Shown one piece after another: positions 16,801 through 20,294 of a DNA stretch of 64,000 nt. The translations under genes and the position numbers were made by a program. The notes beneath the pieces were generated by a model. It did no database searches, had not been told where the DNA came from, and worked only from the letters and a program-made list of their open reading frames with translations. Each line of letters begins with the position of its first letter. The first letter of the stretch is position 1. Source of the stretch: Sulfuriferula sp. (GTDB lineage: Bacteria > Pseudomonadota > Gammaproteobacteria > Burkholderiales > Sulfuriferulaceae); assembly GCA_013140765.1 (NCBI GenBank), contig JABFSE010000017.1, positions 1 to 64,000 of the forward strand, in the 5' to 3' direction.

Positions 16801-16977
16801 CTTCTCGGGCGTATTCAAATCGGGCACATAGTCATAGCCCTGATTCTGCAAATCCTGAATAAACTCGCGCTCCAGCGCATCTTCGCTTTGGTAGGTTTCG
16901 CTCACCTGCCATGCCTTGGCGTATTTATCCAGCACAATGAAATTGTTTGATTCGGCAATGGTTGTGTAGTCAGTCAT
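13879..16977 (-). CDS. hsdR: Type IC restriction enzyme subunit R
   Basis: A 1032-residue motor-nuclease of the EcoR124I type. Nuclease residues D151, E165 and K167 (RYDVTILV ... VQVELKK) and Walker A TTGSGKT with K313 fall at the same numbers as in EcoR124I. The DEAD-box equivalent is DECH, and helicase motifs continue through [19 protein letters not shown]. It would translocate DNA and cut unmethylated DNA when assembled with HsdM and HsdS. Its start overlaps the stop of the Fic gene by 8 bases, so hsdR is translationally coupled to an AMP-transferase rather than following hsdS directly. Confidence 0.97.
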
Positions 16978-17962
16978 TGATAATTTCCCAGTGGCCAGTT
17001 TTATCCGAGCCTATGCGTTTGATAGTGTCCATGCGCTGTAATTTAGCGATAGCGCGACCAATGGTGCGCAAGTCTTTGCCTAAGGTATCGGCTAGTTGCT
17101 GGCGCGTCAGCTGTGGGTTAGCGGTCAGTAAAGCGACGAGTGCATCCGCTGTTTTCAGCCCTGTAACATCCACCAGCGCGTTTACAGGGGCGTTTACAGG
17201 GGCGTTTACAGGGGCGTTTTGTGCCAAGGTTTCGGCTATGACTGAGAGCATAAAATGCACAAACGGCGTGCTATCGGCCTGCTGGTCAGCCTGCTCCAAG
17301 GCTTGGTAATACTGCGCTTGATAATCTTTAATCACGCTCTCCAGCGGCAAGGACAAAAACAGCGGATGCCACTTCGATAAAATCAAGGTTTGCCATAAGC
17401 GCCCCATACGACCATTGCCATCGCTAAATGGGTGGATAAACTCAAATTCATAATGAAACACACTGCTGGTGATTAACGGATGATCGCGTGATTGCGTCAA
17501 CCACTGCATCAGCTCAGCCATCAAGCCCGACACCTGATGCGCTGGCGGGGCAACATGATGCACCACATTGCCTTTATGAATGCCGACAGCTTGGCTACGA
17601 AACGCACCCGCATTCATCAAAATGCCCGACATCATGAACCCGTGGGCGGCAAGCAAGTCACCGATATTGTCAGGCTTCAAGCTAGGCAAAGCCTCATAAG
17701 CCGCAATCGCGCCTTGCACCTCGGCCAGCTCGCGTACATCCCCCAACACCGCTTTACCCTCCACAATCGCCGTAATCTGCGCCTCGGTTAAGGTATTGCC
17801 TTCAATTGCCAGCGTGCCAGTGATGGTTTTAATGCGGTTTTGTTTGCGCAACTGCGGCGAGCTATTTAACGCACTGGCATCCAGCCTGCCCACCTGCTGG
17901 CTAATGTCGGCGACCAGATTGACGATCTCGCTGGTAATGTTAAAAGGCGGTGTATAAGCCAC
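16970..17962 (-). CDS. Fic AMP-transferase, class II autoinhibited, with C-terminal winged helix
   Basis: About 330 residues. I chose the GTG start at 17962 (giving MAYTPPF), preceded by AGAGG; a TTG at 17971 is the alternative. The Fic active-site motif [12 protein letters not shown] is at 177-188 and complete (catalytic His, Asp and both Arg). Upstream, T50-LAI-E54-G55 fits the (S/T)xxxE(G/N) inhibitory motif, placing it in class II, where the protein's own N-terminal helix blocks ATP. A 12-bp DNA repeat encodes NAPV units in the linker before a C-terminal DNA-binding-like domain ([20 protein letters not shown]). Its target is unknown. It is coupled to hsdR. Confidence 0.88.
17178..17219. 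repeat. 12-bp tandem repeat in the Fic linker
   Basis: Three exact copies of GCGTTTACAGGG (17178-17213) plus half a copy encode a NAPV/APVN repeat between the Fic and winged-helix domains. The unit is a multiple of three, so copy changes alter linker length without a frameshift. Confidence 0.9.
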
Positions 17963-17963
17963 G

Positions 17964-18029
17964 TTAAACAACCTCTTGTGGCTTAGGGAAGCGGAGCAAC
18001 AAATCGGCGATGGGGGTGTAGTTAGTCAT
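17964..18029 (-). pseudogene. 21-residue micro-ORF ahead of the fic gene, probable gene remnant
   Basis: An ATG at 18029 opens a 21-codon frame (MTNYTPIADLLLRFPKPQEV then V and stop). It ends one base before the GTG chosen for the Fic protein. The MTNYTPIA start resembles the HsdR start ([10 protein letters not shown]), and DLLLRFPK resembles the HsdS end (DLLFAFPK). It may be a scar of rearranged hsd sequence that now serves as a coupling leader; this is inference from very short matches. AAGGAA lies upstream of the ATG. Confidence 0.35.
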
Positions 18030-18041
18030 TTATTTCCTTTT

Positions 18042-18165
18042 TTAACCACAGATGATTGATGAGCAAACCTATTTTAATTTAACCACAGATGAACACGGAT
18101 ACACACAGATTTGATGGGCAAACCTATTTTAATTTAACCACAGATGAACACGGATACACACAGAT
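18042..18165. repeat. Composite tandem repeat related to the GxxExxY gene
   Basis: Two copies of a roughly 54-base unit (18058-18110 and 18111-18165) plus a partial copy fill the gap between the fic and GxxExxY genes. Each unit joins TGATG(A/G)GCAAACCTATTT to AACCACAGATGAACACGGAT. The first part matches the 3' coding end of the GxxExxY gene (LGLLINF, same strand as in the gene). The second matches its 5' end (MNADEHRF) but inverted. It is not a CRISPR, as there are no unique spacers. Confidence 0.8.
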
Positions 18166-18182
18166 GGGGTTAGGATTGGTCA

Positions 18183-18575
18183 TTATTTACTATTTAACAT
18201 TCTTTTGATTTGAACTTTAGGGGTGCCAAAATTGATGAGCAAACCTAGGGGTAGCTGGGTGGCTTTCAGATAGTTTAATAGTTGCGCCTGGTGTATTTCA
18301 TTGAGGGACTGTACTGCTTTGGTTTCGATGATTATTTCCCTATTGACTAAAATGTCGGCGAAATACTCACCGACTATGCTTCCTTTGTAAGTAATCGTAA
18401 TCGCCTTTTCTTTTTCTACCTCAAGCCCTGTGTTCAATAGCTCTATTACCAAAGCGTTTTGGTACACTTTTTCAAGAAAACCCGCACCAAGTAAGTTTGA
18501 TACAGTAAACGCACAGCCAATAATTTTTTCCGAAATCAAATTTAACGAATCGAATCTGTGTTCATCTGCGTTCAT
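18183..18575 (-). CDS. GxxExxY protein (PD-(D/E)XK-like)
   Basis: A 130-residue protein with the signature GFLEKVY (GxxExxY) near residue 37 and a PD-(D/E)XK-like pattern DILVNREIIIETKA (D, then ExK). It ends with the family's LGLLINFG segment. I chose ATG 18575 (MNADEHRF) because AAGGA sits 7 bases upstream; ATG 18590 is also possible. The first codons lie in a dispersed repeat that also encodes the last residues of HsdS. Members of this family are widespread as lone genes and their function is unknown. A nuclease role is suggested only by the fold and the restriction context. Confidence 0.85.
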   Translation of the reverse strand: MNADEHRFDSLNLISEKIIGCAFTVSNLLGAGFLEKVYQNALVIELLNTGLEVEKEKAITITYKGSIVGEYFADILVNREIIIETKAVQSLNEIHQAQLLNYLKATQLPLGLLINFGTPKVQIKRMLNSK

Positions 18576-19686
18576 CTGTGGTTCCTTCATCTTTCGGAAA
18601 TGCAAACAGCAAATCGCGGTAATAAGCATACTGCTGTTGGCGCAAGGCAATCTCACGCGGCAAACCTTCGGTGAGAGAGTTAGTCAGCGCGTCAAATTTG
18701 TCGAGGATGGCAACGATGCGGGCTTGTTCATCAGGGGGAGGAGTCGGTACTGGAAATCCGACTAATTCCTTTTTATTTAATGCCGGAACTCCTGTCATAT
18801 TTGCAAGCCCCACTATGTCCTTCGTGGCATTGGCCATGACATGGTATAGAAAGCGAGTTGTAATTATTTCAGTCGTACTGCGGATTCTGTAGCAAAGCGG
18901 TCCACACCAGAAACGAGATGTTTGATAACCCACATATCCAATACCGCCCTGTCCACGCGAAGGCGTTGTAATTGTGTCCGGCTCCGTATTGTAGGCAGGA
19001 ACATAACCTGATGGCGTTGTTCCTGCATTCACAAATGGATATTCGCCTATTTCATTACCGGCTGGTGCTTGCCCTACGTTAATACTGCATAGCTCCCCCA
19101 ACGTCTTCCACTCCACTCCCCCATCTTCAAAACTGAGCAACTGGTCGCGGTAGTCGTTGTATTGTTTTTTGCGGGCGGTCAGCTCGGCGGTCAGCTCGGC
19201 AGTCAGCTCAGTGAAGGTGTCCAAAATGCGAACGATTTCGGCTTGGATTGTTAGCGATTTTTCTGGGTTTTCAGGGCATGGGATGGGGATTAGGATTTTG
19301 TTCAAAATCGCTTGAGTCAGGCTAGGTCTTCCCGATCCCGCATCTAAAGACATTAGATCAATGGTTTTAATAAAATGATAAAGATATTTTGGAATAATCT
19401 TCGAAGTATCGATTTCCGTGTAGAAAATGGTGTCAACATTCCAAAACGGCTTTTCGACGTAGAAAATATTTGTAATAGAGCCTTTACGAGGAATCAAAAC
19501 CGTTGGCTTGTTGTATGAATATGTATCAACATATTCCATGATGCCACCCGAGCCATAAACTGGGACGTCGCCTGCATCTAAACCTTTCCAGTCTTTTCCA
19601 TGTTTTATTTTTGCCACTTGATCTAAAGGTTTCCATTCCACCTCAACGCCATCCAGCAGCTTTTCGATGAAGTTCATGTTGCTCAT
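18562..19686 (-). CDS. hsdS: Type IC specificity subunit HsdS
   Basis: A 374-residue specificity subunit with two target-recognition domains separated by conserved helices. The first conserved spacer (ILDTFTELTAELTAELTA) contains the tandem TAEL unit known from EcoR124I, and the second (LDKFDALTNSLTEGLPREI) closely resembles the same family. It would set the bipartite methylation and cleavage site; the site itself cannot be read from sequence. The final residues (GTTDERR) are encoded by the dispersed repeat at the start of the GxxExxY gene, with 14 bases of overlap, so the natural C-terminus appears to have been replaced. It follows the Fic gene by 2 bases. Confidence 0.95.
   Translation of the reverse strand: MSNMNFIEKLLDGVEVEWKPLDQVAKIKHGKDWKGLDAGDVPVYGSGGIMEYVDTYSYNKPTVLIPRKGSITNIFYVEKPFWNVDTIFYTEIDTSKIIPKYLYHFIKTIDLMSLDAGSGRPSLTQAILNKILIPIPCPENPEKSLTIQAEIVRILDTFTELTAELTAELTARKKQYNDYRDQLLSFEDGGVEWKTLGELCSINVGQAPAGNEIGEYPFVNAGTTPSGYVPAYNTEPDTITTPSRGQGGIGYVGYQTSRFWCGPLCYRIRSTTEIITTRFLYHVMANATKDIVGLANMTGVPALNKKELVGFPVPTPPPDEQARIVAILDKFDALTNSLTEGLPREIALRQQQYAYYRDLLFAFPKDEGTTDERR
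19174..19209. repeat. 12-bp tandem repeat encoding the HsdS TAEL spacer
   Basis: Three 12-bp units (GGCGGTCAGCTC twice, then GGCAGTCAGCTC, plus-strand reading) encode the TEL-TAEL-TAEL-TA spacer. In the EcoR124 family, changing the number of such repeats by one shifts the spacing between the two half-sites recognised. Confidence 0.93.
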
Positions 19687-19688
19687 GC

Positions 19689-20294
19689 CTACAGCTCCTC
19701 AGTCTTGAATTCGCTATAGCCTTCGTAGTAATAGCTGACATCAATGCCCTTCATAAACAATGCACGGTCTTCAATCTGGTCGGTGAGGGCTAGGTTGAGC
19801 AGGGCTTTGATTTCAAGGTCTTTCGCCACACTGCGTTGCATGGCAGATAGATAGTCCTCTTTATCGACCTGGTTCCAATCCACTACCTGTTGAATTTCTT
19901 TTTTCAACATCAGATCCAGCCAAATGCGGGTGGCGCGGCCATTGCCTTCGCGGAACGGATGTGCAACATTCATCTCGACATATTTTTCGATGATTTTATC
20001 AAAAGTGCTTTGGGGCATGGTGTCGATATGTTTTAGCGATGTTTCAAGATACATTACCCGCGCAAAAGCGGTTGTACCTTTGGCAATATTCACGTCGCGA
20101 ATTTTGCCTGCAAAGTCATATATATCTTCAAACAAATAGGCATGAATAAACGCAAGTCCGGCGAATTTCCCCACCTCTACCTTGTGAATATCGCCAGAAT
20201 CAAAAAGTTGTTTGGCTTTTTGTTTGCTGATTTTTTCCTCAAAGCGGGCGAGTTCGATTTGATCGGTGATGCCTAGTTTGTTTTCTAAAATCAT
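19689..20294 (-). CDS. fic: Fic AMP-transferase, class III (NmFic-like)
   Basis: A 201-residue single-domain Fic protein. The active-site motif [12 protein letters not shown] is at 112-123. The C-terminus carries S187-YYY-E191-G192, the (S/T)xxxE(G/N) inhibitory helix at the position seen in Neisseria NmFic. The sequence around it ([11 protein letters not shown]) and [10 protein letters not shown] are strikingly NmFic-like. In that family, oligomer dissociation and tyrosine auto-AMPylation relieve inhibition, and GyrB has been reported as a target; the target here is unknown. Its start overlaps hsdM by 4 bases (ATGA), and hsdS follows after 2 bases, so it is embedded in the modification module. 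Confidence 0.92.

Follow-up and report, generated by a model that had tools for sequence, protein, structure and literature searches.

Two described systems come closest to the arrangement studied here. In the REPIN-RAYT (TnpA-REP) systems, short palindromic extragenic repeats are tied to one small gene (PMC3116915, PMC8266576), and in the intervening sequences (IVS) of 23S rRNA, which are cut by RNase III, a small open reading frame is located between inverted repeats (PMC4990558). Direct repeats of the heptamer TAACTGA in Beggiatoaceae and cyanobacteria are unexplained (PMC4679880). The window, that is, the whole stretch of 64,000 nucleotides of Sulfuriferula DNA that was analysed, contains a GxxExxY gene with repeats at both of its ends, located between hsdS and a Fic gene in a type I restriction operon, with all of these genes on the minus strand. 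This copy is not an IVS, as it lies between hsdS and fic and not in a 23S rRNA gene, and its protein belongs to PF13366, not PF05635. GxxExxY proteins form a widespread, uncharacterised family, and no explanation is known to us for the repeats in the style of ACCACAGATGAACACAGATG that are scattered in many genomes. In the literature within our coverage, outside of which lay most subscription papers and all bioRxiv preprints, we found no report linking GxxExxY, PF13366, or TIGR04256 to repeats.

The hsdS-fic locus of Sulfuriferula

Two tandem units (18047-18101 and 18102-18156, plus strand) adjoin the gene, with 91% identity and a period of 55 bp, not the 54 bp given in the preliminary description. 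Both units contain the arm AACCACAGATGAACACGGATACACACAGAT, which over 30-35 bp shows 86-87% complementarity to the region of the GxxExxY start (18549-18583, MNADEHR). Unit 1 further carries a piece, ATTGATGAGCAAACCTA, that has 17 exact bases in common with the 3' end of the gene (18231-18247, LGLLIN) in direct orientation, and unit 2 carries a close copy of it. When the gene was shuffled 3000 times, the longest match was 13 bases (mean 7.3), indicating that the 3' match is not due to chance. The units had been described as made of a direct 3' piece and an inverted 5' piece of the gene, with the gene itself starting inside the same motif. The start inside the motif and the 3' piece were confirmed, but the inverted "5' piece" is, judging from the sequences, better described as an iteron-built terminal inverted repeat (TIR) overlapping the start codon. 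In relatives, arms of this style border the gene irrespective of the coding sequence there, and assembly of the repeats from gene pieces was therefore rejected for the 5' part. The 17-bp match alone derives from the gene, and it was probably left behind by a second copy with an internal deletion. The features of the locus are listed in Table 1.

Table 1. Positions of the element and its neighbours within the window (5' and 3' are relative to the GxxExxY gene)
Feature	Position	Strand	Basis or remark
GxxExxY gene (TIGR04256 / PF13366)	18183-18590	-	Profile matches and fold model; start ATG at 18590 (MKEPQMNADEHR...) or at 18575 (MNADEHR...), the latter within the 5' TIR
5' TIR	18554-18583	-	Three iterons, AACCACAGATGAACGCAGATGAACACAGAT; family-wide test
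3' TIR, arm R1, beside gene end	18136-18165	+	Inverted match
Arm R2, second 3' arm copy, within tandem array	18081-18110	+	Inverted and direct matches
Arm R3, third 3' arm, truncated to 12 bp	18044-18055	+	
17-bp piece of gene 3' coding end (LGLLIN), tandem unit 1	18055-18071	-	Exact identity
Gene-3'-like piece, tandem unit 2, diverged	18110-18126	-	Direct match
hsdS	18562-19686	-	Reading frame enters the 5' TIR and stops inside
Mini-ORF in element/fic interval	17964-18029	-	End (LLLRFPKPQEVV) resembles the usual hsdS C-terminus; aligned to the uninterrupted junction of genome G413
Fic/DOC gene downstream of element	16970-17962	-	Probable GTG start at 17962, based on the G413 homologue

A search of the whole Sulfuriferula genome found one GxxExxY gene, and the repeat motif at up to two mismatches was found at this locus only; two matches with three mismatches elsewhere in the genome were unconvincing, and dispersal of the repeat inside the genome was looked for and not found. 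The hsdS-fic junction of G413, whose fic is 81% identical to that of the window, is uninterrupted (GCCTGATATGAG), and in three plasmid relatives the hsdS-fic gap is only 88-153 bp, with no annotated gene inside. On balance, we regard 18044-18583 as a single copy of a compact mobile element, in which GxxExxY lies between TIRs of about 30 bp. Two further features were observed in the same restriction operon: a second Fic/DOC gene between hsdM and hsdS (19689-20294), and three 12-bp repeats (GCGTTTACAGGG; 17178-17219) within the Fic gene downstream of the element, which encode a short NAPV repeat.

The protein matched the TIGR04256 profile with 150.7 bits (cut-off, 35) and the PF13366 (PDDEXK_3) profile with 145 (cut-off, 22). 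Its AlphaFold2 model had a pLDDT of 94.7, and the best Foldseek matches of the model were 4ic1 (SSO0001), which we take to be a Cas4-family protein, and lambda-type exonucleases. In 28 sequences, D81, E91, K93, and Y109 were invariant and Q105 was nearly so, which is the D, E-x-K, QxxxY pattern of the RecB/Cas4 type. The dN/dS values of GxxExxY, where computable, were 0.03-0.29, indicating purifying selection. The fold, the kept catalytic-type residues, and the low dN/dS together point to a predicted minimal Cas4/RecB-like PD-(D/E)XK nuclease of about 120 residues that is probably active and under selection. As for a transposase or recombinase, GxxExxY is the sole gene inside the element, and no Pfam or NCBIfam transposase match was obtained. 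We know of no Cas4-like nuclease that mobilises DNA by itself.

Repeats and iterons across the GxxExxY family

GxxExxY loci were drawn from relatives, from named genomes of many phyla, and from paralogues, and the 300-bp stretches on the upstream and downstream sides of each gene were compared; a locus was taken as positive when their best local inverted match scored at least 14. Inverted repeats across the gene were found in 83% of 121 loci and again in 83% of an enlarged set of 157. In the 121-locus set, the corresponding values were 7% for mismatched flank pairs and 0.5% for shifted pseudo-genes in the same loci, and none of 20 ParE toxin genes reached the threshold; chance inverted repeats were rejected by these three controls. 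The earlier suggestion that similar repeats recur near such genes elsewhere was thus borne out for the style, which flanks GxxExxY across phyla, but not for the spelling AACCACAGATGAACAC, which is not general; likewise, the genome search yielded no other copies, whereas the association with GxxExxY elsewhere was very strong. At the genome level, the motif was present in 16 of 57 genomes with the gene and in 9 of 242 without it (p = 2e-7). Within one family this association was absent (15/45 vs. 7/29, p = 0.45), and the genome-level association was therefore not used as evidence of linkage.

An arm starts on its outer side with ACC and continues with about three iterons that have a period of 8-10 bp, e.g., AACCACGAATTAACACGAATGAACACGAAT or AACCGCCAAGACGCCAAGACGCCAAGGA. 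One universal repeat sequence was rejected, since each element has a private spelling; in one Botrimarina genome, seven paralogous elements all differ in spelling, and each spelling recurs throughout the two arms of its own element. The spelling followed the type of protein. RAT-ending iterons were accompanied by an FLEKVYE-type protein in 35 of 42 cases and never by an LLESxYE protein, and RAG-ending iterons by an LLESxYE protein in 42 of 53 cases and by the FLEKVYE type in 2; the window element, with an FLEKVYQ protein and CAGAT/CGGAT iterons, fits this rule. The nearest protein neighbour shared the iteron class in 79 of 104 cases, compared with 23% expected, and the Mantel correlation between protein and iteron was 0.34, above all 2000 permutations. 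On the protein tree, many forks of which are unresolved, no more than 2 changes are required for the last iteron base, and 18 for the A/G base. Inheritance within clades accounts for part of the match, and shared inheritance could be its cause; the association across many phyla fits recognition of the iterons by the protein. That the end spelling follows the enzyme type inside suggested that each enzyme probably recognises the ends of its own element.

The same loci could also be read with GxxExxY as a passenger. The repeat-bounded unit would then, like MITEs, be mobilised in trans by a different enzyme, and the gene would have a role such as defence or repair. The existence of gene-less palindromes and single arms, the position of the window copy in a restriction operon, the type I restriction genes that also adjoin loci L025 and L138, and a protein without shown mobilising chemistry are all in line with this reading. 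However, it would not lead one to expect iterons and GxxExxY proteins to correspond in type across phyla, nor does it sit well with repeats flanking GxxExxY in 83% of the loci or with the trpD-trpC and ribF-ileS sites, which are unconnected with defence. We consider a passenger role unlikely, and recognition of the iterons by the GxxExxY protein itself the better account.

The two arms of an element were also found to resemble each other. In the trpD-trpC elements, the arms within a locus were 83% identical, and the similarity between loci was 0.643 for the same arm and the opposite arm alike, indicating that the arms evolve as one. Some solitary elements have unlike arms, a point against the favoured reading. 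Four short elements (L284, L287, L288, and L309) have unlike arms with CAGAT on one side and CAGAG on the other, a pattern suggestive of an exchange of arms between types of element. In 54 loci, ACCRC served as an anchor for the outer end; the upstream stop codon abutted the arm (TGA directly followed by ACC) in 10 cases and lay 7 bases before it in 7, these being the commonest spacings, and the next start codon lay mostly 6-28 bases past the opposite arm. Among 132 loci with clear neighbours, which were called by the longest open frame, both neighbours ran in the same direction as the gene in 108 and both were opposed in 5. This sense bias may arise because stop/start junctions are chosen as targets or because selection removes antisense insertions. 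As far as the sequences tell, the element is a unit of roughly half a kilobase between operon genes in many bacteria and some archaea.

The long complementary arms, the site between operon genes, and the sense orientation (108 vs. 5) would equally suit an element acting at the RNA level, in which the arms pair in the operon mRNA, RNase III cuts the stem, and the insert is removed, with a precedent in the IVS, where a small ORF between inverted repeats is cut in this way (PMC4990558). Among the arm-arm mismatches of 130 loci, however, wobble-type mismatches numbered 184 and non-wobble transitions 179 (p = 0.83). This lack of a G.U bias indicated that the constraint is on DNA and not on RNA pairing, which was therefore rejected as the main cause of arm matching. 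Neither the 8-10 bp period nor the match to nuclease type is needed for an RNA stem. We thus regard an RNA-level element as quite improbable, although RNA processing of the arms may occur as a side effect.

Sites, relics, and a proposed mechanism

Most close relatives have common flanks, indicating that the elements persist in place. Several pairs with 70-85% protein identity have no common flanks, and in these the DNA ceases to be homologous at the inverted repeats or close to them. Between L173 (a Methanoperedens MAG) and L039 (a Brocadiaceae MAG), the alignment starts at the 5' arm and breaks off just beyond the outer limit of the 3' arm; the limits were much the same for L231/L061 and L064/L090, and in L041/L048 homology stops exactly at the 3' arm. 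The genomes of these pairs are metagenome bins, in which binning errors are possible, and the case for bacteria and archaea rests on such bins. Because homology in unrelated contexts ends at the outer repeats, gene and repeats behave as one unit; the moving cassette of the preliminary description is upheld in this respect, but not in its dispersal within the Sulfuriferula genome.

Within one genus, the trpD-trpC and ribF-ileS junctions were empty in some species and occupied in others, and in still others they held frameshifted genes, short gene relics, or gene-less palindromes. This genus appears to lie near Mariprofundus, to judge from L035, which has flanks in common with members of its family and is 72-73% identical to them in protein sequence. 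At trpD-trpC, ATGA-like stop/start motifs were seen on both sides, with no clean target duplication. Two genomes (G185 and G220) contain dispersed CAGAT-type sequences, both solitary arms and short palindromes. The same two junctions hold GxxExxY elements in distant taxa (trpD-trpC, L144-L164; ribF-ileS, L293-L312), and at trpD-trpC of genome G277 (L164) several gene-less CAGAG-type palindromes lie in series upstream of trpC. Against mobility, no recent transposition was caught: flanks are common to most close relatives, and none of the genomes read had near-identical copies at different places. Carriage of the elements by phages was looked for and none was found. That the gene is host-domesticated at conserved operon junctions (e.g., for trpC or ileS expression), with the repeats as regulatory sites, would agree with the occupation of the same junctions in many species and the common flanks of most close relatives, but it is the least likely of the readings in view of the patchy presence within one genus, where some sites are empty and others hold frameshifted genes or relics, the related elements in unrelated sites, and neighbours without a common function.

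We favour, with a probability of roughly 0.6, a compact mobile element whose own nuclease recognises and cuts the iterons, and whose copying and arm homogenisation occur through break repair. The GxxExxY nuclease would recognise the iterons of its own element and cut there, repair of the break would place copies of the element, or of its arms, at further operon junctions, and gene conversion during repair would keep both arms alike. In the window, the element would have entered the type I restriction operon at its hsdS-fic junction, and the tandem units of 55 bp would represent extra 3' ends from an internally deleted copy. If arms or arm-like sites are cut and then repaired from another arm or element, then movement, internal deletions, single-arm copies, and concerted arms would all be accounted for at once. 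That the protein binds and cuts, that repair does the copying, and that the element moves itself is what we infer from these comparisons.

PF05635 (S23p-like four-helix-bundle) genes (L195-L224) also had inverted iteron arms, in which the iterons recur every 7 bp (AGTAGGC, for example), and 16 of 25 such loci scored at least 14, compared with 7.5% of mismatched pairs; these genes may constitute a parallel element class. The TAACTGA heptamers have a 7-bp period equal to that of the PF05635 arms, and a link between the two is a guess. More tentatively, and at somewhat less than even odds in our estimation, the GxxExxY elements might be a not-yet-described class of mobile element driven by a minimal Cas4-like nuclease reading its own iterons, with the enzyme-iteron pairs of each lineage forming a natural protein-DNA recognition code and with a parallel S23p-like class having 7-bp iterons. 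If so, the rRNA intervening sequences would, through that parallel class, become a single case of something more general, and the hundreds of GxxExxY genes in databases would embody the recognition code, the enzyme-iteron pairs being a natural set for working it out. The tie between repeat and gene would provide a testable function for GxxExxY and an origin for many dispersed repeats. At about half a kilobase, the element would rank among the smallest gene-carrying mobile units, and it would do so within operons of conserved genes.

Comparison with known systems

The Cas4/RecB nucleases provide the best structural matches and share the conserved D, ExK, and QxxxY residues, whereas GxxExxY has only about 120 residues, has no tie to a CRISPR locus in the window, and lies inside a repeat-bounded unit. 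Free-standing homing endonucleases are similar in that a small nuclease gene lies between conserved genes and recurs at the same sites (trpD-trpC, ribF-ileS) across distant taxa; iterated TIRs with a private iteron spelling are, to our knowledge, not features of homing endonuclease genes. With IS elements and MITEs, the element shares a TIR-bounded unit in unrelated contexts and gene-less derivatives, but it differs in being without a known transposase, near-identical copies at different places in the genomes read, or a clear target duplication, and in lying almost only in sense in operons. The 23S rRNA IVS with S23p (PF05635) have a similar size (about 0.4-0.6 kb), an ORF of about 120 aa between inverted repeats, and a position inside a transcription unit; GxxExxY differs in belonging to PF13366, in residing in protein-coding operons, and in having 8-10 bp iterons without a sign of RNA-pairing constraint. 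The REPIN-RAYT systems differ in their enzyme, RAYT being an HUH tyrosine transposase and GxxExxY a predicted PD-(D/E)XK Cas4-like protein, and in their REP hairpins, in place of which we found 8-10-bp iterated units in low copy numbers and in sense orientation between operon genes. With these systems, the GxxExxY elements have in common a gene that usually stays put, solitary derivatives, and a repeat type matched to the enzyme type.
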